A DNA stretch of 64,000 nt, from contig CAJVXP010000010.1 in the NCBI GenBank assembly GCA_913009685.1, positions 1-64,000 on the forward strand, given 5' to 3'. This DNA comes from an uncultured Bacteroidota bacterium. GTDB lineage: Bacteria; Bacteroidota; Bacteroidia; Bacteroidales; F082. Shown piece after piece: positions 9,430-23,508 of this stretch (the first letter of the stretch is position 1; each line of letters begins with the position of its first letter). The notes beneath the pieces are model-generated. The model did no database searches. It was not told where the DNA came from and worked only from the letters and a program-made list of their open reading frames with translations. Made by a program: the position numbers and the translations under genes.

Positions 9430-9951
9430 CTACGCAAGGGTTCTGTCCTCACGCTTGGCAAAAATAGCAATTATTAATGAAAATATCGTCCCGGCAATGA
9501 TGTACCATATAAAGCCTGTGATAGCCCTTAAAACAGGGGTGGCAAACATTTTCACCATATCGAGGGCTTTTTGGAGATCCTGATCACTGATATTCGGATT
9601 AGAGGCCAAAATTTTATCTTCAGCTTCAGAAATCCCATTGGTCAAAGCAGCCGTATCAATATATTTCAAATAGAAGAACGTAAAAATTCCAAGCAGGATG
9701 GCAACGAAAAAAGCTATCCAGAAGCCAACACCAAAGGCCTTTCCGTAAGACATTACGCCTTCTAATTGTTTTTCTCTGATATTACTAATTCCCCAATACA
9801 TACCTCCCACAAAAAAGAGATAGCCGATTAGATTCCATGAAGAGTGCATGTCTACGCCGGCGAGGTACATAATTAATGTATAAACAATCATGGCTAATCC
9901 GGTAAGCAAGCCAAATTGTAGTGCCGGCACAAAGGTTGATTTTTTTTCCAT
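9430..9951 (-). CDS. DUF4199 domain-containing membrane protein
   Basis: A 173-residue protein with four predicted transmembrane helices (about 12-30, 38-55, 74-98, 142-165) and a soluble loop at 100-140. The pattern, including GGMYWGISNIREK and the MSYGKAFGVGFW segment, is that of DUF4199, a family found almost only in Bacteroidota. Function is unknown. Its position directly before the membrane GT2 gene suggests a role with that enzyme, perhaps in lipid-linked sugar handling. It is the first gene of the leftward cluster. Confidence 0.85.
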   Translation of the reverse strand: MEKKSTFVPALQFGLLTGLAMIVYTLIMYLAGVDMHSSWNLIGYLFFVGGMYWGISNIREKQLEGVMSYGKAFGVGFWIAFFVAILLGIFTFFYLKYIDTAALTNGISEAEDKILASNPNISDQDLQKALDMVKMFATPVLRAITGFIWYIIAGTIFSLIIAIFAKREDRTLA

Positions 9952-9997
9952 GTTTTTATTTTTTTTTGTTTTGTGACGTAAAATTAAAAATAAATCC

Positions 9998-10027
9998 TTT
10001 GCAAAAAGAAAAACATTTGTATTTTTG
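9998..10027 (+). promoter_or_regulatory. Promoter of the SRP RNA gene
   Basis: A -33 element TTTG (9998-10001) and a -7 element TATTTTTG (10020-10027) are separated by 18 bases. This is close to the Bacteroidota sigma-ABfr layout (TTTG, 19-21 bases, TAnnTTTG). It predicts transcription from about 10032, exactly where the RNA stem begins. Confidence 0.8.
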
Positions 10028-10031
10028 CAGC

Positions 10032-10129
10032 GGGTAAGTCTTATACGACCAGCTCCTGCTGAATTCCCCCAGGCCCGGAAGGGAGCAAGGGTAGGTGGTC
10101 GTAGCGGTGCGATATAAGTAGCTTACCCA
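10032..10129 (+). ncRNA. ffs: Signal recognition particle RNA (small, 4.5S type)
   Basis: The universally conserved SRP apical domain is present: CAGGCCCGGAAGGGAGCA with the GGAA tetraloop, bounded by the asymmetric internal loop (GACCAGCTCCTGCTGAA opposite GGTAGGTGGTC). Outer strands GGGTAAG near 10032 and GCTTACCC near 10121 close the stem. A run of nine or more T residues follows at 10130 and serves as the terminator. The RNA pairs with Ffh to target membrane proteins co-translationally. Confidence 0.95.
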
Positions 10130-10139
10130 TTTTTTTTTG

Positions 10140-10214
10140 AAGTACCTAAAACACTTTAAGTACTTCAAACTTTAGACACTCCCCACTTTAGCCACTTCAA
10201 ACTTTAGCCACTTT
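10140..10214. repeat. Short imperfect tandem repeats of the ACTTTAGCCACTT type
   Basis: Between the SRP RNA and the YrdC-family gene, the units ACTTTAAGTACTTCAA, ACTTTAGACACTCCCC, ACTTTAGCCACTTCAA and ACTTTAGCCACTTTTT follow one another with a 16-17-base period. A trace of the same vocabulary appears at 21085-21112 (AGTTAGCTAAAAGTTGGAGTGCCTAAG). No coding potential is evident. Confidence 0.55.
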
Positions 10215-10246
10215 TTCCTTATCTTCGCTTAATTAAAAACAAAGAC

Positions 10247-10861
10247 ATGCTGATAAAAATTTATCCTGAAAATCCTGCACCGCGCCACATACAGACCGTT
10301 ATAGAGGCATTAAATCAGGGTCGGATTATCATTTTCCCCACCGACACAGTGTATGCCATGGGCTGCGACTTGCTTTACCACAAAGCTTTTCAAAAGATTC
10401 AACAGATAAAAGGACAGGAAAAGGCCAAAAACAATTTTTCCATCATCGTGAAAGACCTCTCCATGCTTTCAGAATATACTCTGCCCATCGGCAACACCAT
10501 TTTCAGGCTTATGAAGAAAAACCTCCCCGGACCGTTTACCTTTATTTTAAATGCCAACAGCAAAGTGCCTAAACTGTTCCAGAGCAAAAAGAAAACACTG
10601 GGAATTCGTATCCCTGACAATAAAATCCTCATGCACATTGTGGAGGAGCTGGGACATCCGCTGGTGACCACCTCCATTCACGACGAGGATGAAGTTGTGG
10701 AATACACTACCGACCCCGAACTCATCTACGAAAAGTACGGTCACATAGTGGAAACAGTAATTGATGGTGGCTACGGCGACAATGAAGCTTCCACAGTGGT
10801 GGACTGCACTTCCGGCGAGCCGGTGATCATCCGTCAGGGAAAAGGAACGCTGAACAAATAG
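10247..10861 (+). CDS. Sua5/YciO/YrdC/YwlC family protein (threonylcarbamoyl-AMP synthase-like)
   Basis: A 204-residue protein with the YrdC fold. Visible motifs are FPTDTVYAMGCDL near 30, SIIVKDLSM, LPGPFTFIL near 100, GIRIPDNK near 122, HPLVTTS, and the C-terminal STVVDCT(S)GEPVIIRQGKG. Family members make threonylcarbamoyl-AMP for the t6A37 modification of ANN-decoding tRNAs. The short length without a Sua5 C-terminal domain and the general pattern fit the YciO-like subgroup, whose exact reaction is less certain. A TATCTTCG element 20 bases upstream resembles a -7 box. The tRNA-Lys downstream is itself a t6A substrate, which may be coincidence. Confidence 0.88.
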   Translation: MLIKIYPENPAPRHIQTVIEALNQGRIIIFPTDTVYAMGCDLLYHKAFQKIQQIKGQEKAKNNFSIIVKDLSMLSEYTLPIGNTIFRLMKKNLPGPFTFILNANSKVPKLFQSKKKTLGIRIPDNKILMHIVEELGHPLVTTSIHDEDEVVEYTTDPELIYEKYGHIVETVIDGGYGDNEASTVVDCTSGEPVIIRQGKGTLNK

Positions 10862-10920
10862 ATGTCAAAAAGGTTTCTCTAAGACATTGCAAAAAATTCA
10901 ATGATTTTTTTTAAAAAGGT

Positions 10921-10950
10921 TTTGCTAAATTAAAAAAAATACTACTTTTG
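10921..10950 (+). promoter_or_regulatory. Promoter of tRNA-Lys
   Basis: A -33 TTTG (10921-10924) and a -7 TACTTTTG (10943-10950) are spaced by 18 bases, the same geometry as the SRP RNA promoter. It lies 38 bases upstream of the mature tRNA 5' end. Confidence 0.75.
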
Positions 10951-10988
10951 CGCCTCCATTTATGCATAGCATTGCTACGCGAAAGAAT

Positions 10989-11061
10989 GATTCGTTAGCT
11001 CAGTTGGTAGAGCATCTGCCTTTTAAGCAGAGGGTCCCGGGTTCGAGCCCCGGACGAGTCA
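10989..11061 (+). tRNA. tRNA-Lys (anticodon TTT)
   Basis: A 73-base cloverleaf. The acceptor stem GATTCGT (10989-10995) pairs with ACGAGTC (11054-11060) through one T-G pair, followed by discriminator A. The D arm is AGCTCAGTTGGTAGAGC. The anticodon arm CTGC-CTTTTAA-GCAG gives anticodon TTT. The T arm is CCGGG-TTCGAGC-CCCGG. CCA is not encoded. It is followed at once by an intrinsic terminator. Confidence 0.97.
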
Positions 11062-11066
11062 CTCCT

Positions 11067-11100
11067 ATAAAAAGCTGCTCCTTTGAGGCGGCTTTTTTTA
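11067..11100 (+). terminator. Intrinsic terminator of tRNA-Lys
   Basis: AAAAAGCTGCTC and its partner GGCGGCTTTTTTT form a stem around a short loop (CTTTGA), ending in a run of T residues just after the tRNA. Confidence 0.8.
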
Positions 11101-11123
11101 TTTCCATACAATGCAGTCTCCAC

Positions 11124-11206
11124 TTTTTTTGTTAATTTGCCCCAAAATTAGGAACCATGAAAGAGACCATAAGAAATCTGAGAGACCACGGCTTTGAAGT
11201 TATTCC
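11124..11206 (+). repeat. Left copy of an 83-bp direct repeat flanking the AT-rich island
   Basis: This stretch matches 20450-20532 at 82 of 83 positions, the one difference being C at 11141 against G at 20467. The repeat covers the promoter region and first 17 codons of the LUD-domain gene. Past the repeat the two copies diverge but keep scattered identity for about 25 more bases. The 9.3 kb between the copies is visibly more AT-rich than either flank. Confidence 0.93.
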
Positions 11207-11252
11207 AGATAGGGATGCTGAAGAAGCATTAGTTGAGCCATGGTTAATATAA
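11157..11252 (+). pseudogene. Truncated 5' remnant of a LUD-domain gene
   Basis: An ATG-initiated frame of 31 codons ending in TAA. Its first 17 residues (MKETIRNLRDHGFEVIP) are identical to the intact LUD-domain protein at 20483. The next residues DRDAEEALVEPWLI only loosely match VRNATEALETAKKF before the stop. The rest of the gene is absent here. It is best explained as the stump left when the island at 11.2-20.45 kb inserted in or recombined with this gene. The diverged tail may come from a foreign homologue. It is unlikely to encode a working protein. Confidence 0.88.
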
Positions 11253-11339
11253 AATTTCATTATCTGGATCAAGATGAACGTTCTCTAAAAATATACATGT
11301 CAAAAAGTGTTAATCCGGAATTACAAAGAATATTTTATA

Positions 11340-11368
11340 TACTTTTGTACTCATTATACCGTTTCGGT
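11340..11368 (+). promoter_or_regulatory. -7 element and putative TetR operator for the island regulator
   Basis: TACTTTTG (11340-11347) is a perfect -7 element. The palindrome ACCG-TTT-CGGT (11358-11368) lies just downstream, around +5 to +15 of the predicted transcript and 15 bases before the tetR ATG. That placement suits autorepression by the TetR-family protein. No second copy of the palindrome was found elsewhere in the island. Confidence 0.5.
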
Positions 11369-11383
11369 CTAAAAAAATAATAA

Positions 11384-11971
11384 ATGTCAATAGACGCAAC
11401 AAAAAATAAGATTATCAGCGTAGCAGCCAGACTCTTCGGGAAATATGGTTTTAACAAAACCTCCATGAATGAAATTGCTTTGGTTGCCCGGAAAGCAAAA
11501 GGATCTTTATATTATCATTTTGCCAGCAAAGAAGAATTGTATGTGAAGGTGGTGGCAACTGAAATTCAAAATTTAAAAGACAGCCTTTCAATTATTGTTA
11601 ACAACACTGAATTAAAGGCAGATAAAAAAATCATGTATTACATGATTAAACGAATGGAAATCATGCATTTGGCAGTAAATTATCATGATTCTTTAAAGGC
11701 TGATTTTTTTGAGCATTTTGAATTTGTGGACAACCTTCGTCAAGAACTCGACAAATGGGAGCATATACAGTTAGGAAATATTATCAATCAGGGAATTGAT
11801 CAAGGGGTATTCGCTAATTACAAGGGCAAACTGGAAGTTTTACTGGATATGGTCATTATGGTACTAAAAGGACTGGAGATACCCTTTTTTATTCAGGATA
11901 AATACGATGAATTCAGACCACATTTTGAATTTTTGAGTAACATTTTAATGAAAGGTCTGGCTCAAGATTAA
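11384..11971 (+). CDS. TetR/AcrR family transcriptional regulator
   Basis: A 195-residue repressor-type protein. The N-terminal DNA-binding domain (about 5-52) contains AARLFGKYGFNKTSMNEIALVARKAKGSLYYHFASKEELY, a textbook TetR helix-turn-helix. The C-terminal ligand domain is family-specific and its ligand is unknown. It is the first gene of the + strand island and precedes acyltransferase, MMPL and lipase genes, so the likely signal is a fatty acid, acyl-CoA or other amphipathic compound. A possible operator (11358-11368) sits in its own leader. The codons are clearly more AT-rich than those of genes outside the island. Confidence 0.92.
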   Translation: MSIDATKNKIISVAARLFGKYGFNKTSMNEIALVARKAKGSLYYHFASKEELYVKVVATEIQNLKDSLSIIVNNTELKADKKIMYYMIKRMEIMHLAVNYHDSLKADFFEHFEFVDNLRQELDKWEHIQLGNIINQGIDQGVFANYKGKLEVLLDMVIMVLKGLEIPFFIQDKYDEFRPHFEFLSNILMKGLAQD

Positions 11972-12025
11972 AAAAATTTATCCATAAATTGACTACAGAA
12001 CCAATAAAGTATAAAGAACATACAA

Positions 12026-12130
12026 ATGAAAGATAAAATATTGATAAATGAATTTCTAAAAGATGAAAATATAGGGGCAAAAGCATCAAGTTCTAACAGG
12101 CTTGTAAGGAATAAAATAAGCCTAATTTAA
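12026..12130 (+). CDS. Small ORF (34 aa), unrecognised
   Basis: ATG at 12026 opens 34 codons (MKDKILINEFLKDENIGAK..., ending NKISLI) and stops one base before the acyltransferase ATG at 12132. No family is recognised. It could be a leader peptide that couples translation to the acyltransferase, a fragment of a decayed gene, or chance in AT-rich DNA. The tight spacing to the next start is the main argument for it being translated. Confidence 0.3.
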   Translation: MKDKILINEFLKDENIGAKASSSNRLVRNKISLI

Positions 12131-12131
12131 T

Positions 12132-12689
12132 ATGAAAATAGTGTCAGGTAAAATATTAAAACTATTAGGATGGAAAATTGTTGGAAATTTCCCTAATATT
12201 AATAAAAGTGTGGTTGTTATGGCACCTCACACAAGTTATTGGGACTTTGTTTTAGGCCGGTTGTATTTAGATGCAGTGGGTAGAAGCAACAATACACTTA
12301 TGAAAAAAGAGATATTCATTTTTCCGTTAAATATACTGATGAGTAAACTTGGCGCAATTCCGATTGATAGAGGTAATAAGAAAATAAGCTACGTATCTCA
12401 ATTAAAATCAATCTTTAACGAAAGAGATGAGTTTAATTTATTTATTGCACCGGAGGGAACAAGAAAACAGACTACCCGTTGGAAAAAGGGTTTCTTTCAT
12501 ATAGCTAAAGAAGCAGATGTTCCTATCCTTCTAAGCTATATTGATTACAAAGAAAGAAAAATAGGGATAGAGGGCATTGTTAATGATACAAGCAGTATTG
12601 AAAGCACCATGAAAGAGGTAAATAAATTTTACAAAAACAAAAACGCGAAATACCCCGAGAATTTTGCTTTAGATAAAAGATTTCAATAA
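12132..12689 (+). CDS. Lysophospholipid acyltransferase family protein (PlsC-like)
   Basis: A 185-residue protein with the glycerophospholipid acyltransferase motifs. The HX4D active site is APHTSYWD (His33, Asp38), followed by a GAIPIDRGNKK segment (motif II region) and APEGTR (Glu108-Arg111) of motif III. By family it transfers an acyl chain to a lysophospholipid or similar acceptor at the inner membrane. It is shorter than housekeeping PlsC (about 240 aa) and resembles the compact forms linked to exopolysaccharide or specialised lipid clusters. It sits between the island regulator and the MMPL transporter, with a 135-bp MITE-like element inserted after it. Confidence 0.9.
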   Translation: MKIVSGKILKLLGWKIVGNFPNINKSVVVMAPHTSYWDFVLGRLYLDAVGRSNNTLMKKEIFIFPLNILMSKLGAIPIDRGNKKISYVSQLKSIFNERDEFNLFIAPEGTRKQTTRWKKGFFHIAKEADVPILLSYIDYKERKIGIEGIVNDTSSIESTMKEVNKFYKNKNAKYPENFALDKRFQ

Positions 12690-12711
12690 TTATTTTTTAA
12701 ATAAATCTGTC

Positions 12712-12860
12712 TAAAAAACAATACTCCGGTAAGTTTTTATAACAACCTGAAAACGAGCTTATTAACTAATGAGATGCGAAATGGTTAATTTATTCTATAT
12801 CAGTACGTTATGTTTCGTGTAATAGTCGATTTCAAAAACTTACCGGAGTATTGTAAAAAA
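12712..12860. mobile_element. MITE-like element with 19-bp terminal inverted repeats
   Basis: The element body is 12719-12853 (135 bp). Left end CAATACTCCGGTAAGTTTT (12719-12737) is the exact reverse complement of 12835-12853. The sequence TAAAAAA flanks it on both sides in the same orientation (12712-12718 and 12854-12860), as expected for a 7-bp target-site duplication. The region is AT-rich, so chance is possible. The interior has no ORF. It separates the acyltransferase from the MMPL gene and may carry regulatory effects. No transposase with matching ends is in the window. Confidence 0.75.
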
Positions 12861-12907
12861 TATAATTATCACAAAATACAAATCTGTTTAAAAAGAATGA
12901 AATTAAA

Positions 12908-15166
12908 ATGAAAAATTTAGCAAAGCTTATCATAAAATACAGGATTGTAATCGTTCTCTTAACGTTTGGGCTTACCGTCTGGCTCGGTTATCAAATAAAA
13001 GACCTGAAGCTGGATGCAGACATCATCAATTCGTTGCCTAATAATGATTCGGTAGCTGTTACTTATAAAAATATTGGCAACCAATTTGGCGGCAACTCCA
13101 TGGGGATGATAATCCTGAAGACAGACAATATTTTTAAAACTTCTGTTCTTGAAAACATAAAACAAGTTACCGACACCCTGCAACAGACCGATGGTATCTC
13201 AACGGTTACCAGTCTTACCAATATCATTGATATTAAAAAAGAAGATGGCGGAATTGACATCAGTAACCTGGTTGACCCATATGACCTTCCCCGAACAAAA
13301 TCAAAACTTGACAGCCTGAGAGCGAGGGTTATGTCAAAGGACATGTATAAAGGGAATATTGTATCTGCAGACGGCACTTCAACCATTATTATGTTCACTT
13401 TGAACGATGGCGTTGACAAACAGGCTGTTGCCAAAATTGTGAAAGAAAAAGTAAAATCAATGCACCTTCCGGAAAAAGTCTATTTCGGGGGAATGCCCAT
13501 GATGATGGATGATGTGGCACACTTAATGAAACGTGACATGAGTACCTTATTACCCATCGCGCTTATTGTTATCATGCTTATTCTTTTCCTGAGTTTCCAG
13601 TCGGCACGAGGCGTTATATTACCCTTACTATCATCAGCTATATCCATAATTTGGGTACTGGGCATCATGCAGTTGCTCGGATTTAATCTGGATTTGATTT
13701 CAAGCAACATCCCCATTGTCCTGCTCGCTGTCGGAAGCGCATATACCATTCATGTCATCAACCGTGTTAACGAGGAAAAGGGGAAAAACCGAAAAAAGGC
13801 ACTTGTCAGGGCACTGACTTATATCACGGTTCCGGTATTCCTTTCGGGAATTACTACTGTATTTGGCTTCTCATCCTTTATTTTCGGTGCTTACCTGACT
13901 ATGATCAGAAACTTTGGAATATTTACTTCTCTCGGGACACTTTTTGCCATGATTATTGCCCTTGTTTTTGTTCCCGCTTTAGTTTCCCTGTTTTCGGTGT
14001 ACAGGAGAAAAAACACAAAGGCTAAAGTTAAAAAAAGAGAAAACACATTAATGGGGAAATGGTTCCTGATGCCATTTTCAAGACTAATAGCCAAACATCC
14101 TAAATATATATTCGCCGGTTCGCTCTTGTTGATCCTTGTCAGTGTTATTGGAGTTTTTCAGATAAAAACCAGTGTGAACATGGTCAATTACTTTGAAAAA
14201 ACCAATTCAACCCGTATTACGGAAGACTTGATGCAACAAAAATTCGGTGGTTCTTTACCTGTATTCGTGGTCTTTAAGGGGGACATGCAAAGCCCTGAAG
14301 TACTGAATACTATGATGGAAACAGAAGATTACATGAAAAAATATCCTTATGTAAAAACCACCGAATCCGTGGCTGACCTTATTAAGCAGATGAATAATGT
14401 GATGGGAGAAGGATCAAAAATTCCGAATTCAAAACTTAAAATACAGCAACTTTGGTTTTTGCTCGAGGGTCAGGACATCATGCCACAACTCGTTACTAAA
14501 AACCTGAATGAAGGAATCATACAGTCGCGTTTCGGTTCAGCCGACAGCAAGGATATGGAGAATTTTGTAACCTATATGAATAAATTTATTACAGCCCACT
14601 CAACTAAAGATTGTCAAATATCACTTACAGGGATGCCTTCGGTTTATGTCAGACTTAATAACAGTTTGGTCAGAAGTCAGTTTACGAGCCTGGGACTTGC
14701 CATTTTATTGGTTATTTTCATTGTTTCCCTTGTTCTAAAATCTATCAGGAAAGGATTTTATGCAGCCGTTCCAATCATTGTTACCATTATCTTTTTATTT
14801 GGTTTTATGGGTTATGTCGGTATTGCGTTAAACGTGGCTACCGTATTGGTTGCCAGTATTGCTCTTGGAATGGGAATTGATTATTCCATTCATATTATCA
14901 CCTATTATTACAACGACTTTAATGAGACCATGAACGTGGAAAGATCCATTAAAAACACGATGATGGTTAGTGGTAAAGCCATTATTATCAATGTGGTTTC
15001 CGTGGCTGCCGGTTTTTTAGTACTCCTTTTCTCTCATATCGTCCCGATTCAGGATTTTGGGTTGCTTGTGGCGTTAAGCATGGTAGGCTCAGGTTTTGCA
15101 GCCCTGACGCTCTTGCCTGTCATCCTGATTATGGACAGTAGAAAATACTTAAAAAATACTAATTAA
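12908..15166 (+). CDS. MMPL/RND-type lipid transporter
   Basis: A 752-residue RND-superfamily protein with two repeats, each made of one N-terminal helix, a periplasmic domain and five more helices (about 12 helices in total). The two MMPL cores are visible at IVLLAVGSAYTIHVINR and SIALGMGIDYSIHIITYYY, the latter with the Asp-Tyr pair of the proton relay. Relatives export lipids or hopanoid-type molecules, or act in hydrophobe efflux. Together with the LolA-like protein directly downstream and the outer-membrane barrel at 19062, it could form an inner-to-outer membrane lipid transfer path. That assembly is inference. Confidence 0.92.
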   Translation: MKNLAKLIIKYRIVIVLLTFGLTVWLGYQIKDLKLDADIINSLPNNDSVAVTYKNIGNQFGGNSMGMIILKTDNIFKTSVLENIKQVTDTLQQTDGISTVTSLTNIIDIKKEDGGIDISNLVDPYDLPRTKSKLDSLRARVMSKDMYKGNIVSADGTSTIIMFTLNDGVDKQAVAKIVKEKVKSMHLPEKVYFGGMPMMMDDVAHLMKRDMSTLLPIALIVIMLILFLSFQSARGVILPLLSSAISIIWVLGIMQLLGFNLDLISSNIPIVLLAVGSAYTIHVINRVNEEKGKNRKKALVRALTYITVPVFLSGITTVFGFSSFIFGAYLTMIRNFGIFTSLGTLFAMIIALVFVPALVSLFSVYRRKNTKAKVKKRENTLMGKWFLMPFSRLIAKHPKYIFAGSLLLILVSVIGVFQIKTSVNMVNYFEKTNSTRITEDLMQQKFGGSLPVFVVFKGDMQSPEVLNTMMETEDYMKKYPYVKTTESVADLIKQMNNVMGEGSKIPNSKLKIQQLWFLLEGQDIMPQLVTKNLNEGIIQSRFGSADSKDMENFVTYMNKFITAHSTKDCQISLTGMPSVYVRLNNSLVRSQFTSLGLAILLVIFIVSLVLKSIRKGFYAAVPIIVTIIFLFGFMGYVGIALNVATVLVASIALGMGIDYSIHIITYYYNDFNETMNVERSIKNTMMVSGKAIIINVVSVAAGFLVLLFSHIVPIQDFGLLVALSMVGSGFAALTLLPVILIMDSRKYLKNTN

Positions 15167-15253
15167 GCATATGGAAAATCAGGTTAAAATGGGCACAGGA
15201 AGTACGAGAACAATTATATAAATTAAATTAATAAACTTTTAAATGTAAATAAA

Positions 15254-15988
15254 ATGAAAACAGTAAAATTATCAGTATTAATAAGTGCGTTATTTCTTTT
15301 GGTTGGATTTAACGTTAATGCACAAAATGCAACCACCATCCTTAAAAAAATGGATGATGTCATGTTTTCCGCGAAAGACCAAAGTGCAACAGAAAAAATT
15401 ATCCTGACCGATAAAGACGGAAGCATAAGAACACGTGAAGCAACTATTAAGCAGAAGGGAAACAGCATGCGTCTGTTCCGGTTTGTGAAACCGGCTTCAC
15501 AGGCAGGCATTTCTATACTTTCGTTACCCAACGATGTTATGTATTTGTATATGCCGGCGTTTGGAAAAGTAAGAAGAATATCGTCCAGCGTAAAGAGCCA
15601 AAATTTTGCAGGAACCGATTTTTCTTATGATGACATGGAATCGAAACCTTATTCTGAGAAATATACGTCTAAATTGCTCAAAACAGAGGCAGGGGACTTT
15701 GTATTACAGTTGATTCCCAAATCTAAACGATCGGCTTATTCTAAAATAATTGTTACTGTTGACAAAATAAATGGTTACCCTGTTAAAATGGAGTTTTACG
15801 ACAGGGGAAACAAAAAGTTTAAAGTGGCCGATTATCAATTTAAAAAAATTGGGAAATACTGGAATGCTTCTGTTATCACCATGACCAACCTCAAAAAACA
15901 TCATCAAACAAAAATGATCATGTCGAGCGTAAAATACGATCAGGGTCTTAGTGATGAAGACTTTACGGTGAGAAAATTGGAACAATAA
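15254..15988 (+). CDS. LolA-like outer membrane lipoprotein-sorting protein
   Basis: A 244-residue secreted protein. A signal peptide (residues 1-23, MKTVKLSVLISALFLLVGFNVNA) precedes a LolA/DUF1329-like beta-sheet fold: ILKKMDDVMFS, a repeated amphipathic strand pattern, VMYLYMPAFGKVRRI and FAGTDFSYDDME. The last two segments are the hallmarks of the family annotated as outer membrane lipoprotein-sorting protein that accompanies MMPL transporters. It probably carries a lipid or lipidated cargo through the periplasm. It lies 87 bases after the MMPL gene, on the same strand. Confidence 0.88.
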   Translation: MKTVKLSVLISALFLLVGFNVNAQNATTILKKMDDVMFSAKDQSATEKIILTDKDGSIRTREATIKQKGNSMRLFRFVKPASQAGISILSLPNDVMYLYMPAFGKVRRISSSVKSQNFAGTDFSYDDMESKPYSEKYTSKLLKTEAGDFVLQLIPKSKRSAYSKIIVTVDKINGYPVKMEFYDRGNKKFKVADYQFKKIGKYWNASVITMTNLKKHHQTKMIMSSVKYDQGLSDEDFTVRKLEQ

Positions 15989-16056
15989 AATAGTAATATT
16001 TTTTGAAGGAGAGTGTTCTTTAAGTGAATATCCTCCCCGGTATATACTTTATAGCG

Positions 16057-16929
16057 ATGAAAAACAAAGTAGCTTTAGTATTGTCAAGTGGCGGGTCAAA
16101 AGGGCTTGCCCATATTGGAGCAATCAATGTCCTCGAGAAAAACGGATTTGAAATCACGTCTGTTTCAGGCTCATCTATCGGTTCGGTGATAGGTGGTATA
16201 TATGCCATGGGAGAATTGCCGAGATATACGGAATGGGTAAAAACTTTAAATAAAAAGACAATTTGGGGGCTGATGGATTTTGCTTTCTCTACTCAGGGTT
16301 TGCTAAAAGGAGAAAATGTTTTTAATAAAATGAAAACATTTATTCCCGACAGAGATATTGAAGAGATGAATATCCCTTTTTCTGCCATTGCCACTGATTT
16401 AATCAACGAAAAGGAAGTTGTTTTTGATAAAGGCAGTTTTTATGATGCTGTTCGTGCTTCAGTTGCCATCCCCACGGTATTTACACCTGTAAAATATAAA
16501 GATACCATATTGGTGGATGGAGGCGTGTTAAATCCGTTGCCAATTGATCATGTAAAACGATCAGAAGACGACCTCTTGGTTGTCGTTAATTTATATGGCG
16601 ATAAAATTAAGAAGGATATTAAGGAAAAAGAAAACCCGAAATCAGTAACGCTGATTAACAAATTTATCAAACTTATCTATTCCGGTGACAAGAGAAACAG
16701 TAGCTATTTTAGCTTGCTAAATGAGACAACTTCAACCATGATTCATCGCATTGCTAAATTAAGTATCGAAAAATATCAACCCGATATTGTGGTTAACATT
16801 CCAGCAGATTCTGCCGGTACGTTCGCTTTTTATAAATATGGTGAGCTAATCCAATTAGGTGAAGATGCCACTAACCTGGCCATTAATAATTATTACTTTA
16901 ACCAGAAAAAAAATGATTCAAGAAAATAA
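16057..16929 (+). CDS. Patatin-like phospholipase
   Basis: A 290-residue lipid acyl hydrolase from the ATG at 16057. An in-frame GTG at 16024 would add 11 residues without family similarity. Visible features are the oxyanion loop SSGGSKGLAHIGA (10-22), the nucleophile elbow GSSIG with Ser40, and the catalytic Asp in VDGGVLNPLP. It resembles bacterial RssA/YlbK-type patatins. No signal peptide is evident, so it likely acts on membrane lipids from the cytoplasmic side. Its 3' end overlaps the following GT2 gene by 17 bases, indicating translational coupling. Confidence 0.92.
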   Translation: MKNKVALVLSSGGSKGLAHIGAINVLEKNGFEITSVSGSSIGSVIGGIYAMGELPRYTEWVKTLNKKTIWGLMDFAFSTQGLLKGENVFNKMKTFIPDRDIEEMNIPFSAIATDLINEKEVVFDKGSFYDAVRASVAIPTVFTPVKYKDTILVDGGVLNPLPIDHVKRSEDDLLVVVNLYGDKIKKDIKEKENPKSVTLINKFIKLIYSGDKRNSSYFSLLNETTSTMIHRIAKLSIEKYQPDIVVNIPADSAGTFAFYKYGELIQLGEDATNLAINNYYFNQKKNDSRK

Positions 16930-17629
16930 AATAACAGCCGTAGTTTCGGTTTACAACGAAGAAAAAACCTTGAAAAATGTTGTCAATAACCTGATAAACT
17001 GCAGCCTCGTTGACGAGCTTATTGTGGTAAATGACGGCTCTACCGACAGCACTTCAAAAGTATTAAATCAAATAGCAGCATCGCATCCTTTTCAAAATAT
17101 AGAATTTGAAAAGAACAGAGGAAAATCGTACGCTATGACCACCGGTGTTGAACATGCATCAGGCGACATTATTGTTTTTGTTGATGCCGACCTTATCGGT
17201 TTTAGCTGTGAACATATAAAAGCACTGACACTTCCACTAATTTCCAGCCAAACTAATATGGTAATCGGACGCAGGCCGGCAGAAAATCCCAAAATGGATA
17301 TTACCGGTCCTATGGATGATTGGCTTGGAGGAGAAAGGGCCGTCTACAAAGAGGATATTTTACCCATCCTTGGCAGGATGAGGGAAACCAAATTCGGAGT
17401 TGAAACACTACTCAATCTTTATTTTAAAAGTAAAACCGATACGAATAAACAAACAATTATTGTTAATTTGGAAGGGCTTGTTCATGTAAGAAAATACAAA
17501 AAATACAGCCGCCCGAAAGCAGCAATAAACTATGCTAAAGCTACTTCTCAAATCGTACGAACCGTGTTTGTTAACTACGTTCTCATTTTTACGATTGTTA
17601 GAAATGTCTTTACAAATCTCAAACTTTAG
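16913..17629 (+). CDS. Glycosyltransferase family 2, island copy 1
   Basis: A 238-residue GT-A enzyme beginning at 16913 (MIQENKITAVVSVYNEEKT). Longer frames starting upstream lie inside the patatin gene and do not match. Motifs are VYNEEKT, IVVNDGSTDST, NRGKSYAMTTG, the metal-binding FVDADL, and a GGERAVYKEDILPIL...FGVETLLNLYF acceptor-side segment. There is no membrane anchor. It is clearly paralogous to the enzyme at 18376 along its whole length. The NRGK/DADL/GERA pattern recalls glucosyl-3-phosphoglycerate-synthase-like and lipid-glycosylating GT2s; the true substrate is unknown. It overlaps the lipase gene by 17 bases and is followed closely by a LysE-type exporter. Confidence 0.88.
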   Translation: MIQENKITAVVSVYNEEKTLKNVVNNLINCSLVDELIVVNDGSTDSTSKVLNQIAASHPFQNIEFEKNRGKSYAMTTGVEHASGDIIVFVDADLIGFSCEHIKALTLPLISSQTNMVIGRRPAENPKMDITGPMDDWLGGERAVYKEDILPILGRMRETKFGVETLLNLYFKSKTDTNKQTIIVNLEGLVHVRKYKKYSRPKAAINYAKATSQIVRTVFVNYVLIFTIVRNVFTNLKL

Positions 17630-17638
17630 GATAGCGTT

Positions 17639-18304
17639 ATGATTTTCATTGCCTTTGGTATCGGGTTAATAATTTCTGTTCCATTGGGACCTTTGGGCCA
17701 GATGATGTTGAACAGAGCTGTTGACAGTGGCTTTTGGCATGGATTCTCCATAGCCATTCTGGCGGCTCTGGCCGACTTTATTGTTTGTGATTTTTTTCTA
17801 ATTGGAACAGTATCTGTCGGGGCAATCAGTCCATGGGTAAAAATCGTGCTTCAGTTAGCCGGTCTTGTCTTCTTGTTTTACATGGGAGTAAAGGAAATTA
17901 TTCTTCCCTTTATAAAAAATAAAAGAAATAAAACTCCTGAAAAAAAAGAAAATGAGGTAACAGAAAAGCTCAAATTAGATAAAAAATCTATTTTAAAAAA
18001 CATCGCTGTAGTCGTGAGCTATTATCTTTCTAACCCTACCTATCTTGCTTTTTGGCTAAGCTTTTCCGTTTTGATCAATCAAAAATTTATCGTTCAGCAT
18101 GATTTGTTGCATTACACACTGTTCAGTTTGTTTTTTGCTCTTGGAACATTGACCTGTCAGTATATTGCCATAAAAATTGTACAGGGCGCGACAATTAACA
18201 GCAAGATGCTGGATGTCTTAAAATACATCTCTATCCCATTGTATTCAGGTACACTCTTGTATTTTATTTATCATGTTACTCAAAATATTATTCAAATAAT
18301 ATAG
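17639..18304 (+). CDS. LysE/RhtB-type membrane exporter
   Basis: A 221-residue protein with six predicted helices. The N-terminal signature is FGIGLIISVPLGPLGQMMLNRAVDSGFWHGFSIAILAALADF, where the Pro-Gly-Pro pattern and following helix are characteristic of the LysE superfamily. A cytoplasmic Lys/Glu-rich loop (about 98-120) separates the halves. Classical members export amino acids, and some distant ones act on other small molecules. Its place between two paralogous GT2 genes (9 and 71 bases from its neighbours) argues for a role in the same island pathway rather than general amino-acid export. Confidence 0.82.
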   Translation: MIFIAFGIGLIISVPLGPLGQMMLNRAVDSGFWHGFSIAILAALADFIVCDFFLIGTVSVGAISPWVKIVLQLAGLVFLFYMGVKEIILPFIKNKRNKTPEKKENEVTEKLKLDKKSILKNIAVVVSYYLSNPTYLAFWLSFSVLINQKFIVQHDLLHYTLFSLFFALGTLTCQYIAIKIVQGATINSKMLDVLKYISIPLYSGTLLYFIYHVTQNIIQII

Positions 18305-18375
18305 CCATCGAATAAAAAATAATTGCTTTTAAATAACAAAGAAGGAGAAAACATTAATAACCAAAAGCACTGACC

Positions 18376-19059
18376 ATGAAAACAATATCAGCAATAATTT
18401 GTGTTTATAACGAAGAAAAAACAATTAAAGATGTCGTTTCAATTGTATGCGATTACTTTTTTGATGAAATGATTGTAGTGAACGATGGTTCAACCGACAA
18501 AACCGGTGATATCTTGAATGAACTTGGTAAGTTTTATGATTTCAAATACATTAAATTAAAAGAAAACAGAGGAAAAGGCTTTGCCATGGCTACCGGTGTT
18601 GAAAATGCAAGCGGTGAAATTATTGTGTTTGTTGATGCCGATTTGTCTAACTTAAAAGAAGACCATTTATTTGAATTGGTAATGCCATTGTTGCACAAAA
18701 AGGCTGATATGATACTTGGCCAGGCAACGGAAACATTAATTGACTACAGTATAAATCCTTTTAAATCGTTTACCGGTGAAAGGGCTGTATTAAAAAAAGA
18801 CATATTGCCCATTGTTGATAAAATGAAAAGTTCAAGGTTTGGTGTTGAAACACTCATAAATCTTTATTATCAATCAGAAGGCAAAAAAGTGAAGTATGTA
18901 ATGCTTAAAGATTTAAAACACCCAACAAAATTTGATAAGGTTTCCAAACGACGAGCAATAAAAGAATTTGCAAAAGAAGGGCATCAAATTGCATTAACTG
19001 CATTTAAGAATTTCAATTTAATAACAAGTTCAATAAAAAATAAATTAAAAATTAATTAA
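18376..19059 (+). CDS. Glycosyltransferase family 2, island copy 2
   Basis: A 227-residue soluble GT-A protein. Motifs are ICVYNEEKT, IVVNDGSTDKT, ENRGKGFAMATG, FVDADLSN, and TGERAVLKKDILPIV...FGVETLINLYY. It aligns end to end with the enzyme at 16913, so the pair arose by duplication, but they differ enough to have distinct acceptors or donors. A Lys-rich C-terminus (KHPTKFDKVSKRRA, ending IKNKLKIN) suggests a peripheral contact with acidic membrane. It is followed two bases later by the outer-membrane barrel gene. Confidence 0.88.
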   Translation: MKTISAIICVYNEEKTIKDVVSIVCDYFFDEMIVVNDGSTDKTGDILNELGKFYDFKYIKLKENRGKGFAMATGVENASGEIIVFVDADLSNLKEDHLFELVMPLLHKKADMILGQATETLIDYSINPFKSFTGERAVLKKDILPIVDKMKSSRFGVETLINLYYQSEGKKVKYVMLKDLKHPTKFDKVSKRRAIKEFAKEGHQIALTAFKNFNLITSSIKNKLKIN

Positions 19060-19061
19060 AA

Positions 19062-20441
19062 ATGAAACGAAACAATTTAATTATCCTGTTATTTATCATC
19101 TTGTTACTCGGAACACAAACGACTAAAGCCCAAACGGGAAACAAACTAAAATTATCCGGCTATTTACAAACCGACCAACGTATTTTAACGCAATCGCCAC
19201 ATGATTGGGCGTGGAATGAAAATCGGCTGAGTTTTCAACTGGATAAAAAAATTTCCGGAAGGGCAAAATTCCACAGCGAAATATGGCTGCGTAATATAGG
19301 TATTCCTCACATCACTTCAAGTACCGATTTGTATAATAAAGGTATCGTGGATCCCTGGAACCTGGAAATCAGAGAGGCTTACGTGCAGATTTACGGTTTG
19401 TTTACCAAAAATCTGGACGTAACCATCGGCCGGCAGCGCATCGCCTGGGGCACGGCAGATAAGTTTAACCCAACGGATAACCTGAATCCCTATGATTTTG
19501 AAGACATCCTCGACTTTGGCCGGCATCGGGGTTCCGATGCCATCACGTTAAATTACTATCTTAGCACAAACTATTCAATACAAGGTGTTTTTATCCCTTT
19601 TTACCAGCCTGACAATCTGCCTGTAGGTATGTTCGCCAACATATTCAGCATGAACATGACGCTACCCCGGGGACTTCAATTAAAATCGTTTACCGATGAA
19701 ATCAATATGCCACTTTATAATCTTGGCAAAAGTTCTACAGTCGGATTAAAATTCAAAGGATTTGCTGCTGGCATCGACTTTTCGCTGAGCTACGTTTGGG
19801 GTCGTTATGGTCTCCCTTTTGATACTTTTAATTCTCTTTTGCCGGTGGATACAGTTGGGGGAGTTTCCGTGAACTCACGACTTTCTTTTCCAAGAACGCA
19901 TATCTTTGGAGCAGATTTTGCCACGAGCGTTGGCGGTGTTGGCTTATGGGGTGAAGCCGCTGTATTTATTCCTGAACATCAAGTGGTGAGGAGCACGGAT
20001 GTTACTGCACTCCATCCTGCTTCACCCGTACCGGTTTTGATAGACAGCGTAGTGCTTCATAAAAAGCCGTATGTAAAATTTGTTTTAGGCGCAGATTACT
20101 CTTTCTCAAACGATTCCTATCTTAATTTCCAATATCTGCATGGCTTTGTGAATGAACGCGGCAGCAAAAACCTGAATGATTATTTTATTTTAAGATATGA
20201 GATGAAATTTTTCGAGGATAAATTGAAAATTGCGCCACTCAGCGGGGGAGCTGTGGTTACTAACTGGAAAAATGTAAAAAATAATTATGCCATTTTTTAT
20301 GTACCTCAAATAACCTATATGGCTACTGATAATGTTGAATTGGATCTTTCTGCCGGTATTTTTTGGGGGAAAGGAGATAATCTTTTTGCTAAGCTCGCCG
20401 ATTATAATATGCTCATGTTCAAAATGAAATACAGCTTTTAA
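19062..20441 (+). CDS. Outer-membrane beta-barrel protein (DUF1302/porin-like)
   Basis: A 459-residue exported protein. The signal peptide covers about residues 1-23 (hydrophobic, ending TTKAQ). The mature part is built of alternating amphipathic strands, contains VTIGRQRIAWGTADKFNPTDNLNPYDF, and ends in the aromatic C-terminal strand MLMFKMKYSF that is typical of outer-membrane barrels. The GRQ...WG...NP-D block resembles DUF1302-type proteins, which in Proteobacteria accompany LolA-like DUF1329 proteins and MMPL transporters. It is the last gene of the island, and the right copy of the 83-bp repeat starts 9 bases after its stop. Confidence 0.82.
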   Translation: MKRNNLIILLFIILLLGTQTTKAQTGNKLKLSGYLQTDQRILTQSPHDWAWNENRLSFQLDKKISGRAKFHSEIWLRNIGIPHITSSTDLYNKGIVDPWNLEIREAYVQIYGLFTKNLDVTIGRQRIAWGTADKFNPTDNLNPYDFEDILDFGRHRGSDAITLNYYLSTNYSIQGVFIPFYQPDNLPVGMFANIFSMNMTLPRGLQLKSFTDEINMPLYNLGKSSTVGLKFKGFAAGIDFSLSYVWGRYGLPFDTFNSLLPVDTVGGVSVNSRLSFPRTHIFGADFATSVGGVGLWGEAAVFIPEHQVVRSTDVTALHPASPVPVLIDSVVLHKKPYVKFVLGADYSFSNDSYLNFQYLHGFVNERGSKNLNDYFILRYEMKFFEDKLKIAPLSGGAVVTNWKNVKNNYAIFYVPQITYMATDNVELDLSAGIFWGKGDNLFAKLADYNMLMFKMKYSF

Positions 20442-20449
20442 TTGCCGTT

Positions 20450-20532
20450 TTTTTTTGTTAATTTGCGCCAAAATTAGGAACCATGAAAGAGACCATAAGA
20501 AATCTGAGAGACCACGGCTTTGAAGTTATTCC
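20450..20532 (+). repeat. Right copy of the 83-bp direct repeat
   Basis: Matches 11124-11206 with one mismatch. It contains the poly-T tract, a TAATTTG box (20459-20465) that may be the -7 element, and the first codons of the intact LUD gene. The downstream gene would therefore keep its promoter after the insertion. Confidence 0.93.
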
Positions 20533-21082
20533 TGTTAGAAATGCTACAGAAGCCCTGGAAACTGCCAAAAAGTTCTTTACCGGAGCCAGGTCGGTCGGAC
20601 TGGGGGGATCGGTTACGGTGCAGGAGACAGGATTACTCTCCTGGCTGCGCGAACAGACCGGTTTTCAGCTTTTTGACCAATATGAAGAGAACATCTCCAT
20701 GGAAGAAAATGTGGAACGCCGCCGGAAAGGATTGCTGGCCGACATTTATGTCACAAGTTCCAATGCCGTTACCCGCTCAGGTTATCTTGTGAATGTGGAT
20801 GGTGCGGGAAATCGCGTTGCAGCACAAGCGTACGGCCCCAAAAAGGTGTTGCTCATCGTCGGAAAAAACAAAATTGTTCCCGATGTGGAGGCCGGATTCA
20901 GGCGCATCGAAGAGGTGGTAGCCCCCAAAAATGTGGAACGCGTCAACAAAAAAGCTTTCTCCCTGAAAAAAGAACAGAAATATACAGTTCAAAACATCCA
21001 AAGCGTCTTCGTAGTCATCAAAAAAACGGACAACAAAAACCGGATAAGTCTGATTTTGGTGGATGAGGAGTTAGGGTTTTAA
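20483..21082 (+). CDS. LUD domain protein (LutC/YkgG-like)
   Basis: A 199-residue LUD (formerly DUF162) domain protein. Landmarks are KKFFTGARSVGLGGSVTVQETGLLSWLRE, DIYVTSSNAVTRSGYLVNVDGAGNRVAAQAYGPKKVLLIVGKNKIV and RIEEVVAPKNVERVNKKA. LutC-type proteins take part with LutA and LutB in L-lactate oxidation, but stand-alone copies like this one have no settled function. No lutA or lutB is adjacent; a lactate-dehydrogenase-like gene lies at 60964 but is far away. Its base composition is G+C-richer than the island to its left. It is the intact partner of the stump at 11157. Confidence 0.9.
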   Translation: MKETIRNLRDHGFEVIPVRNATEALETAKKFFTGARSVGLGGSVTVQETGLLSWLREQTGFQLFDQYEENISMEENVERRRKGLLADIYVTSSNAVTRSGYLVNVDGAGNRVAAQAYGPKKVLLIVGKNKIVPDVEAGFRRIEEVVAPKNVERVNKKAFSLKKEQKYTVQNIQSVFVVIKKTDNKNRISLILVDEELGF

Positions 21083-21390
21083 AAGTTAGCTAAAAGTTGG
21101 AGTGCCTAAGAATACCCCATGCCGGCACATGCAAAACGGGAGTTAAATATTTCCAAAAATTCATTGAAGTTATTTTTAGCGAAAGCAATGATCCGGAACG
21201 TCATGCCGACATCTCTTAGACAGACTACCGGAATAATCGACCTATATGAAGAAAATCAGACTGAAACCCGGATGGTCGACACACATTTTCACACAAATGG
21301 AGCAAGCATCCGTTTGTGCTACAGCTCCACTACTTATGTTCTCCCGCATTTCCTATCTTTGTCCGCAGATCTTTACCAAAACCCAAAATC
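21083..21390. other. Gene-free interval before the M3 peptidase
   Basis: This 308-base stretch has no convincing gene. Open frames in it lack family features and run into the peptidase leader. It holds a perfect -7 element, TATCTTTG (21354-21361), about 30 bases before the peptidase ATG. No terminator was found after the LUD gene. Confidence 0.6.
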
Positions 21391-23508
21391 ATGAAAAAAA
21401 CTTTTTACTTATTGATGCTGGCAGCTATTTTTCTGAGCGCCTGCCGTCAACCCGTTAAGAACAAAACGACCATGAGAAAAAATCCTTTGCTCGGAACTTT
21501 TAACACTCCTTTCGGCGTTCCGCCCTTCAGCAAAATCAAAAATTCCGACTATCAGGAAGCCTTTAAAAAAGGAATTGAACAGCAAAACGCAGAAATCGAA
21601 AAAATTGCCAACAATCCGAAAGCCCCTACTTTCGCCAACACGGTGGAAGCCCTCGAAGAAAGCGGGAAACTGCTGGATCGTACCAACACCATTTTCGAAA
21701 ACATCCTGTCAGCTAACACCAACGACACCTTACAGAAAATCGCCAAAGATGAAGCGCCCGTACTTTCAGCTCATTCGGATAATATCCTTATGAACCGGAA
21801 ACTTTTCGGCCGCATCGATAAAGTATATCAGCAAAAAGACAAACTAACGCTAACCACCGAACAAAACACCCTACTCGAAAAAACCTACAAACGGTTTGTC
21901 CGTGGCGGCGCCAAACTCTCCGCATCCGACAAAGAAAAACTGAAAACAATCAATGGCAAACTGAGTGTCTTCTCCCTTCAATTCGGCGATAATGTACTGG
22001 CCGATAACAACGCATTTCAACTTTACCTTACCGACAAAAAAGACCTTGCCGGTCTGCCACAGCCGGTCATTGATGCTGCTGCCGAAACTGCTAAAGCACA
22101 AGGCAAAAACAGAGGCTGGATGTTCACCCTCAACAAGCCCAGCCTGATACCATTTCTGCAATACTCTGCCCGACGCAGCCTGCGCGAGAAAATGTTTAAA
22201 GGTTACATCATGCGTGGTGATAACAACAACAAAAACGACAACAAAGCCATCCTCAAACAAATGGTTAACCTGCGGCTTGAAAAGGCCAAACTGCTCGGCT
22301 ATCCCACTTACGCCGACTATGTGCTGGAGCTGAACATGGCCAAAAATCCGCAAAATGTCTTTAAACTTCTCGGTCAGATTACGCCCGCCGCCATGAACAT
22401 GGCCAAAAAAGAGGCCGCCAACCTGCAAAAGCTGGCTGATGCCGAAGGAAACCATTTCAAAATCCAACCCTGGGACTGGTGGTATTACACCGAAAAACTG
22501 AGAAAACAAAAATACAACCTCGACGATGCCGAACTCCGCCCCTATTTTGCCCTCGAAAACGTACGGAAAGGTCTCTTCAACGTGCTCAACAAACTCTACG
22601 GCATCACTTTTAAGCTGAACAAGGATATTCCTGTCTATCAAAAAGATGTGCGGGCATACGAAGTGCACGAAGCCAACGGCAAACTAATCGGCATTTTGTA
22701 CATGGACTTTTATCCCCGGCCCACCAAACAGGGCGGCGCCTGGATGACAGCCTACCGCAAACAACATTACGAAAACGGCAAAAATATCCTTCCCATCATC
22801 TCGGTGAATTATAACTTCACCAAACCCACCGGCACCACGCCGGCATTGCTGAGCATGGATGAGGTGGAGACTATGTTTCACGAGTGTGGTCACGCCATGC
22901 ACGGACTTTTCAGCCAGTGCCGGTACGAAAGTCTGTCGGGCACCTCCGTCCCACGCGATTTTGTGGAGATGCCGTCACAGATTATGGAAAACTGGGCCAC
23001 TGAGCCGGCCGTGTTGAAAAGCTACGCCAAAAACTACAAAACAGGAAAGCCCATTCCCGATGCCCTCATCAAAAAGATGGAAGCCGGCAGTAGGTTCAAC
23101 CTCGGCTTCACGCTCACCGAATACCTCGCCGCCTCTTATCTCGACATGGACTGGCACACCATCACAAAACCATTCACCGGAAAAGTCAACACCTTCGAAA
23201 AGGAAGCCATGAGCCGCATCCATCTCATTCCCGAAATCGTGCCACGCTACCGCAGCACCTATTTCAACCACATTTTCTCCGGTGGTTACGCCTCGGGCTA
23301 CTACAGCTACGTCTGGGCCGAAGTCATCGACGCCGACGCCTTCCAGGCCTTCAAAGAAAACGGCCTGTTCGACAAAACCACCGCCACCCGTTTCCGCAAA
23401 GACATCCTGTCCAAAGGGGGCACCGAAGACCCCATGAAACTCTTCAAAGCCTTCCGTGGCCGTGCCCCCAAACCCGATGCCTATATGAAAAAGAAAGGAC
23501 TGAAATAA
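21391..23508 (+). CDS. M3 family metallopeptidase (Dcp-like), lipoprotein
   Basis: A 705-residue protein. The ATG at 21391 gives a lipoprotein signal MKKTFYLLMLAAIFLSAC with the lipidated Cys18; an in-frame start 25 codons upstream would spoil it. The catalytic zinc motif HECGH is at residues 497-501 (context ETMFHECGHAMHGLF), with the third ligand Glu in the downstream conserved helix. Sequence and length match peptidyl-dipeptidase Dcp of the thimet oligopeptidase family, which removes C-terminal dipeptides from oligopeptides. The lipobox places it in the envelope, facing the periplasm or surface. It has its own -7 box at 21354-21361. Confidence 0.94.
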   Translation: MKKTFYLLMLAAIFLSACRQPVKNKTTMRKNPLLGTFNTPFGVPPFSKIKNSDYQEAFKKGIEQQNAEIEKIANNPKAPTFANTVEALEESGKLLDRTNTIFENILSANTNDTLQKIAKDEAPVLSAHSDNILMNRKLFGRIDKVYQQKDKLTLTTEQNTLLEKTYKRFVRGGAKLSASDKEKLKTINGKLSVFSLQFGDNVLADNNAFQLYLTDKKDLAGLPQPVIDAAAETAKAQGKNRGWMFTLNKPSLIPFLQYSARRSLREKMFKGYIMRGDNNNKNDNKAILKQMVNLRLEKAKLLGYPTYADYVLELNMAKNPQNVFKLLGQITPAAMNMAKKEAANLQKLADAEGNHFKIQPWDWWYYTEKLRKQKYNLDDAELRPYFALENVRKGLFNVLNKLYGITFKLNKDIPVYQKDVRAYEVHEANGKLIGILYMDFYPRPTKQGGAWMTAYRKQHYENGKNILPIISVNYNFTKPTGTTPALLSMDEVETMFHECGHAMHGLFSQCRYESLSGTSVPRDFVEMPSQIMENWATEPAVLKSYAKNYKTGKPIPDALIKKMEAGSRFNLGFTLTEYLAASYLDMDWHTITKPFTGKVNTFEKEAMSRIHLIPEIVPRYRSTYFNHIFSGGYASGYYSYVWAEVIDADAFQAFKENGLFDKTTATRFRKDILSKGGTEDPMKLFKAFRGRAPKPDAYMKKKGLK

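Follow-up and report, generated by a model that had tools for sequence, protein, structure and literature searches.

We analyzed a 64,000-nucleotide stretch of DNA, hereafter the window (G000:C10; contig CAJVXP010000010.1), from the genome of an uncultured Bacteroidota bacterium, a draft in 64 contigs that is 87.8% complete. Within the window, an operon of nine genes lies behind a tRNA-Lys gene, between two direct copies of the start of a LUD gene. We are highly confident that the operon was inserted at this place in this lineage.

The repeat pair and the operon

The repeat and its immediate neighbours consist of the following features.

10989..11062, forward strand: tRNA-Lys (ttt), left neighbour of the repeat and outside it
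11124..11206, forward strand: left repeat copy, with the native LUD leader, ATG, 16 further codons and 2 bases
11157..11249, forward strand: LUD stump of 31 codons, with diverged LUD-like sequence at about codons 18-26
20450..20532, forward strand: right repeat copy, from self-alignment of the window
20483..21082, forward strand: intact resident LUD gene, 199 aa (PF02589, 124.8 bits; 89% identical to the gene of the related genome G011)

The two copies, which had been described in an earlier note made from the letters alone, were recovered as an ungapped match at 82 of 83 positions (98.8% over 83) with a spacing of 9,326 bases. The alignment extends to 104 nt at 93% identity and scores 157 bits over this length; in 20 dinucleotide-shuffled versions of the window, no direct self-match scored above 37.4 bits. 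Self-alignment and shuffles thus agree with the earlier description, in which the left copy leads into a 31-codon stump and the right copy into the intact gene. Each copy is composed of a 33-nt leader, where the single mismatch lies (11141 C, 20467 G), followed by 50 coding bases without a difference. Upstream of the left copy, the sequence resembles by eye the spacer between tRNA-Lys and LUD in genomes G002 and G003. The tRNA gene lies outside the repeat, as had been noted, although the gap from its end (11062) to the repeat start is 61 bases rather than 63. Because of this distance, and because the repeat includes no tRNA sequence, integration targeted to the tRNA was rejected.

The LUD leader is an imperfect palindrome (window 11131-11155 and 20457-20481), which by eye takes the form TAATTTG, 3 bases, CAAATTA in G011. 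The sole mismatch between the repeat copies sits at its centre, again as judged by eye. The palindrome may be a promoter, an operator or a recombination core.

Beyond codon 17, the stump was said to diverge from LUD. The divergence is partial, and the sequence stays LUD-like to about codon 26: 17 of 27 bases in register match the resident LUD gene, and 18 of 27 match LUD of G005. In the rest of the window, only 2 of 53,973 positions reach 17 matches to the resident gene and 4 of 53,973 reach 18 matches to the best of six LUD genes, while 2 of 9,189 positions reach 18 within the island between the repeat copies. The tail is most likely a diverged LUD start that arrived with the operon. The likeness is unlikely to have arisen by chance, in line with the earlier suggestion of a foreign LUD homologue in the incoming DNA.

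Between the repeat copies, the following nine genes were identified, all on one strand as previously observed.

11384..11971, forward strand: TetR-family regulator (PF00440, 54.2 bits)
12132..12689, forward strand: PlsC-type acyltransferase (PF01553, 62.5 bits)
12908..15166, forward strand: MMPL (HAE3-type RND) exporter (PF03176, 172.5 bits; TIGR00921, 307.1 bits, under the cut-off of 351.9)
15254..15988, forward strand: LolA-like outer-membrane lipoprotein-sorting protein (PF17131, 174.1 bits)
16057..16929, forward strand: patatin-like phospholipase (PF01734, 99.5 bits)
16913..17629, forward strand: first GT2 glycosyltransferase (PF00535, 88.9 bits)
17639..18304, forward strand: LysE-type translocator (PF01810, 56.5 bits)
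18376..19059, forward strand: second GT2 glycosyltransferase (PF00535, 94.9 bits)
19062..20441, forward strand: DUF1302 protein, probably outer-membrane (PF06980, 33.1 bits, cut-off 23.2)

The end of the DUF1302 gene is 8 bp from the right repeat copy, and about 135 bp lie between the stump and the TetR gene. None of the nine proteins matched an integrase, resolvase or transposase family in the Pfam scan, in agreement with the earlier note. Judged by the family names, which include those of an acyltransferase, a phospholipase-like protein, two GT2 enzymes, an MMPL exporter, a LolA-like carrier and a DUF1302 protein, the operon probably serves the cell envelope: its products would make or remodel a lipid or glycolipid and carry it to the outer membrane, with TetR as the regulator. 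A sister operon in genome G025 encodes an additional protein that scores just above the cut-off for the lyso-glycine-lipid acyltransferase GlsA (261.5 versus 260), which hints at aminolipids.

The operon also contains a feature that was missing from the earlier note, resembling a miniature inverted-repeat transposable element (MITE).

12719..12853, no strand assigned: MITE-like element of 135 bp with 20-bp inverted ends, flanked by a TAAAAAA target duplication (12712-12718, 12854-12860)

The MITE-like element occurs at five places in its own genome, three of them at contig ends, and in none of 11 congeners. Because of this distribution, the operon has probably been resident in the lineage since the element spread, unless the donor also carried it. 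A composite transposon was rejected, as there are no transposable elements at the operon ends, no transposase family among the nine proteins, and the MITE-like element is internal.

The site and the operon in related genomes

The earlier note had predicted that relatives would show an empty site, with tRNA-Lys followed directly by a single LUD gene. This arrangement was found in the congener G011, which shares the gene order of the window and in which LUD begins 62 bp past the tRNA and no operon is present, and also in the congeners G003 and G004, which agree with G011 on the tRNA side. The gene order in G011 is transketolase, RPE, glycosyltransferase, epimerase, GT2, DUF4199, Sua5, tRNA-Lys, LUD, two genes on the opposite strand, M3 peptidase, BlaI and BlaR. 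When joined at the repeat, the window flanks align with G011 over 1,511 columns at 80.0% identity. The identity to G011 is 89% for LUD, 89% for Sua5 and 91% for M3 peptidase, and the agreement of LUD with its neighbours shows the right-hand LUD gene to be the native one.

The DNA following tRNA-Lys could be inspected over at least 1.8 kb in 10 of the 11 congeners, none of which carries the operon there; in G010 the contig ends 516 bp on. A full LUD gene is missing in six congeners (weak matches in G010 and G041 were excluded from the count of orthologues), and in G005 LUD is located far away from tRNA-Lys. In G002, tRNA and LUD are kept apart by a pseudo-tRNA plus about 1 kb of further DNA, over two contigs overlapping by 127 bases, and the operon of this genome is on another contig.

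Both repeat copies have states that are missing in the five LUD-bearing relatives, such as AGA at codon 6. Their coding parts are identical to each other at 50 of 50 bases, as compared to 45 of 50 for G011 and likewise for G004. These shared private states and the complete coding identity indicate that the duplication, or else its homogenisation, took place once the lineage had split from G011, and support a duplication that would be young relative to the species split.

Several further observations were made around the site. The two opposite-strand genes after LUD in G011 look by eye like a response regulator and a histidine kinase, and similar genes come after LUD in G004 (by eye). In the window, only 308 bp (21083-21390) lie between LUD and M3 peptidase, at the place of the regulator/kinase-like pair of G011 (by eye). 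Pseudo-tRNAs that repeat the 3' end and the terminator of tRNA-Lys lie behind the gene in G002 and G004 (L013:1-141, L085:9020-9146, L014:9258-9451), so the interval behind tRNA-Lys has undergone repeated changes in the genus. In G008, the operon begins behind tRNA-Cys, with a piece of a group II intron (RF02001, 46.3 bits) between the tRNA and the TetR gene (L089:14697-15009). The Rfam scan, which also covered L089 and L013, found no intron in window stretches 9560-12760 and 18950-22053. A Bacteroidales small signal recognition particle RNA (RF04183, 107.9 bits) was identified at window 10025-10132, followed by a degenerate 16-bp tandem repeat at 10152-10212.

The GC content of the island is 0.3595, whereas that of 363 other window stretches of equal length ranges from 0.397 to 0.447. 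Its dinucleotide distance of 0.047 is above those of all 37 other stretches (maximum 0.036). The observation that the island is AT-richer than its surroundings thus stands, although its value as a sign of recent import is weakened by the fact that the operon is also AT-richer than its flanks elsewhere (G008, 0.346 versus 0.427/0.392; G012, 0.332 versus 0.428/0.450; QMOR, 0.386 versus 0.468/0.451). Short versions of the operon match the GC content of their hosts (0.470 in G006 and 0.405 in G010), and in G031 the flanks are AT-richer than the operon (0.36 for the operon versus 0.312/0.305). The composition therefore supports a foreign origin only weakly.

Close relatives of the DUF1302 protein (E <= 1e-60) were found in 13 of 173 genomes of the family, own genome included, corresponding to 5 of 16 genera and 5 of 12 genomes of the same genus. 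Four congeners, G002, G006, G008 and G010, have the operon at other places; a weak TetR match in L097 (33% over 87 aa) was excluded from the operon count. In the trees, the window DUF1302 protein groups with G008 and G010 (100/100) and TetR with G008 (100/100), while the window MMPL protein groups with G006, G002 and G010 (100/99), and that of G008 with G012 (100/99); several of the remaining forks have weak support, and there are some long rows. About 60 bp upstream of the window TetR gene also resemble, by eye, the region upstream of TetR in G008. To judge from these gene trees, the operon has a mosaic make-up and circulates mostly within the genus or close to it. Since its genes group with those of congeners, its source was probably the same or a nearby genus; relocation within its own genome is also conceivable. 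Plasmid records gave 4 matches to the DUF1302 protein at 22-28% identity. A title search of an open-access library, with the terms used, found nothing on this operon.

How the insertion may have arisen

We consider homologous integration likelier than a site-specific insertion whose integrase was later lost, although neither is proven, and give homologous integration of DNA with a diverged LUD start, combined with conversion, about an even chance of being correct. The incoming DNA, a circle or a linear molecule that probably came from the same or a nearby genus, would have carried a diverged LUD 5' end adjoining the TetR promoter. This end would have recombined by homology with the resident LUD start behind tRNA-Lys, and gap repair or later gene conversion would have put resident sequence at both junctions, making the 83 bp nearly identical. 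The right copy would retain the leader and start codon, so that LUD stays whole, and the operon would not require a recombinase of its own. Homologous integration with conversion or gap repair is favoured because it jointly explains the target-derived copies, the LUD-like tail on the left and the absence of a recombinase.

Several points weigh against homologous integration. The LUD-like tail comprises just 27 bases and was examined post hoc, homologous recombination would have had only a short stretch of 83 bp to act on, and the conversion step was invented to account for the abrupt drop in identity at the 83rd base. Identical cores with diverged arms would also be explained by a site-specific recombinase. 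Nor did a scan of named genomes provide a donor: LUD was not found beside the operon at any of the six mapped loci out of seven (L110 was unmapped), all in records called Bacteroidales or Bacteroidetes apart from one Flavobacteriales. Neither a donor molecule nor an excised circle was seen. Of the two origins proposed in the earlier note, recent integration with target duplication or Campbell-type recombination, an insertion that duplicated the LUD start is upheld; it may have been Campbell-type or site-specific.

Site-specific integration is the strongest competitor, although we consider it distinctly less probable. The 83-bp copies would then be the attL and attR sites of an element with the LUD 5' end as its target, whose integrase was lost or acted in trans. 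The attP of this element would have restored the leader and the start codons at attR, as in dusA-targeting islands. The direct repeats on either side, the intact gene on the right and the empty site in relatives are all consistent with such an element, and the inverted repeat in the conserved leader could be its core site, but may also be a mere promoter or operator. However, the nine proteins include no integrase, and the short intervals beyond the operon leave no space for one. The two tyrosine recombinases of the genome (304 and 319 aa) are encoded on other contigs, and no resolvase was found in the 87.8% complete genome. Moreover, none of the 12 other operon loci tested showed a gene-start repeat like that of the window; two gave matches of 14-16 bp only, and the tests were incomplete for L086, which is missing one flank, and L093, which is without the DUF1302 end.

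Illegitimate insertion with a long target duplication, produced by a staggered break and fill-in, appears improbable. It would agree with the appearance of both copies as target-derived. The incoming DNA would in this case have carried no LUD sequence and the likeness of the tail would be due to chance, whereas so few background positions match LUD as well as the tail does. Furthermore, the target duplications of transposons are usually far shorter than 83 bp.

It is very unlikely that the arrangement is old and that the repeats recombined in relatives and so removed the operon. A deletion of this kind would leave an exact empty site, and G002, G006, G008 and G010 do have the operon elsewhere, but separate losses would be needed in G011, G003 and G004 or their ancestors, and the copies share states found in none of these three genomes. 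A false join in the draft is just as hard to credit: the number of contigs, the incompleteness and the three MITE-like copies at contig ends would allow it, but both junctions require real DNA with the lineage-specific leader, one base distinguishes the copies, and an element unique to this genome among the 12 of the genus sits inside the operon.

Hairpin-site arrays and known systems

A homologous operon is present in G025 and G031, which belong to different genera (g15 and g8), at 99.5% identity over 9,519 bp, with the differences located near the ends. A binning error could be the cause of this identity, although the flanks differ. At one operon end, the two sequences cease to be identical within the core of a long hairpin site (TTGCCAACG), and at the other end the G025 contig terminates within a hairpin site. 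A covariance model built from three such sites matched (E <= 1e-4) 64 of 172 genomes of the family and 13 of 16 genera. Arrays of attC-like sites with multi-gene units lie in the following regions.

L092:1-16247
L091:924-17498
L174:3961-19860
L175:707-2044

With a stricter custom script, L091 and L092 yielded no more than a single site apiece, and the repeat pair found in L092 is part of its attC-like sites. G028 holds 16 sites on one strand over about 18 kb, and weaker matches lie near DUF1302 in G082 (L153) and L110. An alignment of 36 sites has 97.0% of the outer-helix cells paired and changes on both sides in 17 of 19 pairs; it was fitted to the covariance model, which favours the helix (alignment A4 consists of matches at E <= 1e-4 from 10 chosen loci). 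The covariation score was not reached by any of 500 shuffles, and slid controls dropped from 0.570 to at most 0.112. The AAC/GTT core is nearly invariant. The units of about 5 and 9.3 kb, one of which is the operon homologue, hold six and nine genes; cassettes of this size would be unusual.

The units lie next to a recombinase, which in G025 is a tyrosine recombinase of 578 aa that scores 220.9 bits against TIGR02249, under the cut-off of 265. Among the matches listed, at least 13 contigs from at least 11 genomes contain both a site and a match to this recombinase, some of which may be ordinary Xer proteins. The alignment of the recombinase with IntI4 (2A3V) falls into two pieces, between which chain residues 178-244 are left out opposite 25 residues of the recombinase (467-491); with an XerC-like chain it aligned in a single piece. 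An insertion specific to IntI is described as the mark that separates integron integrases from other tyrosine recombinases (PMC9668308). In the chain alignments this additional domain is not present in the G025 protein, which thus failed the test for an integron integrase. A DUF5710-like N-terminus is weak in the G025 recombinase, clearer in that of G031 and not found in the G012 protein. Complete integrons are reported in Bacteroidetes/Chlorobi, with Salinibacter ruber named (PMC9024848). The same open-access library, searched by title with the terms used, gave nothing on integron-like arrays with a recombinase that lacks the IntI domain.

The genome under study has a single covariance-model match, outside the window. 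A filtered search of 35 sources gave no attC-like site for the window at E <= 1, and with filters off over 10900-20700 the best match reached only E 0.55. The window copy was therefore rejected as an integron cassette, there being no attC-type site at an operon end. It is doubtful that the operon family travels among these Bacteroidota as a giant multi-gene cassette of an integron-like system, with conserved hairpins and a recombinase that lacks the integron-specific domain, and that the window copy escaped, lodged in the LUD start by homology and lost its hairpin. The arrays are a lead on the operon family, not an explanation of the window repeat. If the hairpin-recombinase system does work, integron-type gene capture would be broader than its present definition.

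Compared with known arrangements, the operon in the window shares with those of G025 and G031 a common core of TetR, MMPL, LolA-like protein, PlsC-type acyltransferase, patatin, GT2 and DUF1302. The proteins are only 47-65% identical, however, the G025/G031 operon has the extra GlsA-like acyltransferase, and it is bounded by attC-like sites that the window copy does not have. When a circle integrates in the Campbell manner, direct repeats of the homologous segment come to flank the insert and no dedicated recombinase is needed. The window insert likewise lies between homologous direct repeats without a dedicated recombinase. In contrast to a plain Campbell-type event, its identity stops abruptly, so that conversion or gap repair must be added.

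The integrative elements at the 5' end of dusA, such as IMEVchUSA3, are described as carrying an integrase and transfer functions (PMC8409611). As in that description, the window insert lies in the 5' end of a protein-coding gene, which receives a new start from the element side so that it stays expressed, and relatives have an empty site. Unlike the elements described there, no integrase or transfer functions were seen in the window insert, whose repeat is nearly identical over 83 bp and at whose left end a diverged piece of the target gene survives.

The locus is a natural case in which a whole regulated operon that has no integrase of its own was acquired at the start of a gene, the start of the neighbouring gene being duplicated and the gene not lost, and sister species preserve the empty site for this gain. 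It also illustrates that a nearby tRNA can mislead when the repeat belongs to a protein gene. This kind of insertion is already known, and the integrase-free duplication of a gene start described here is a good example of it.

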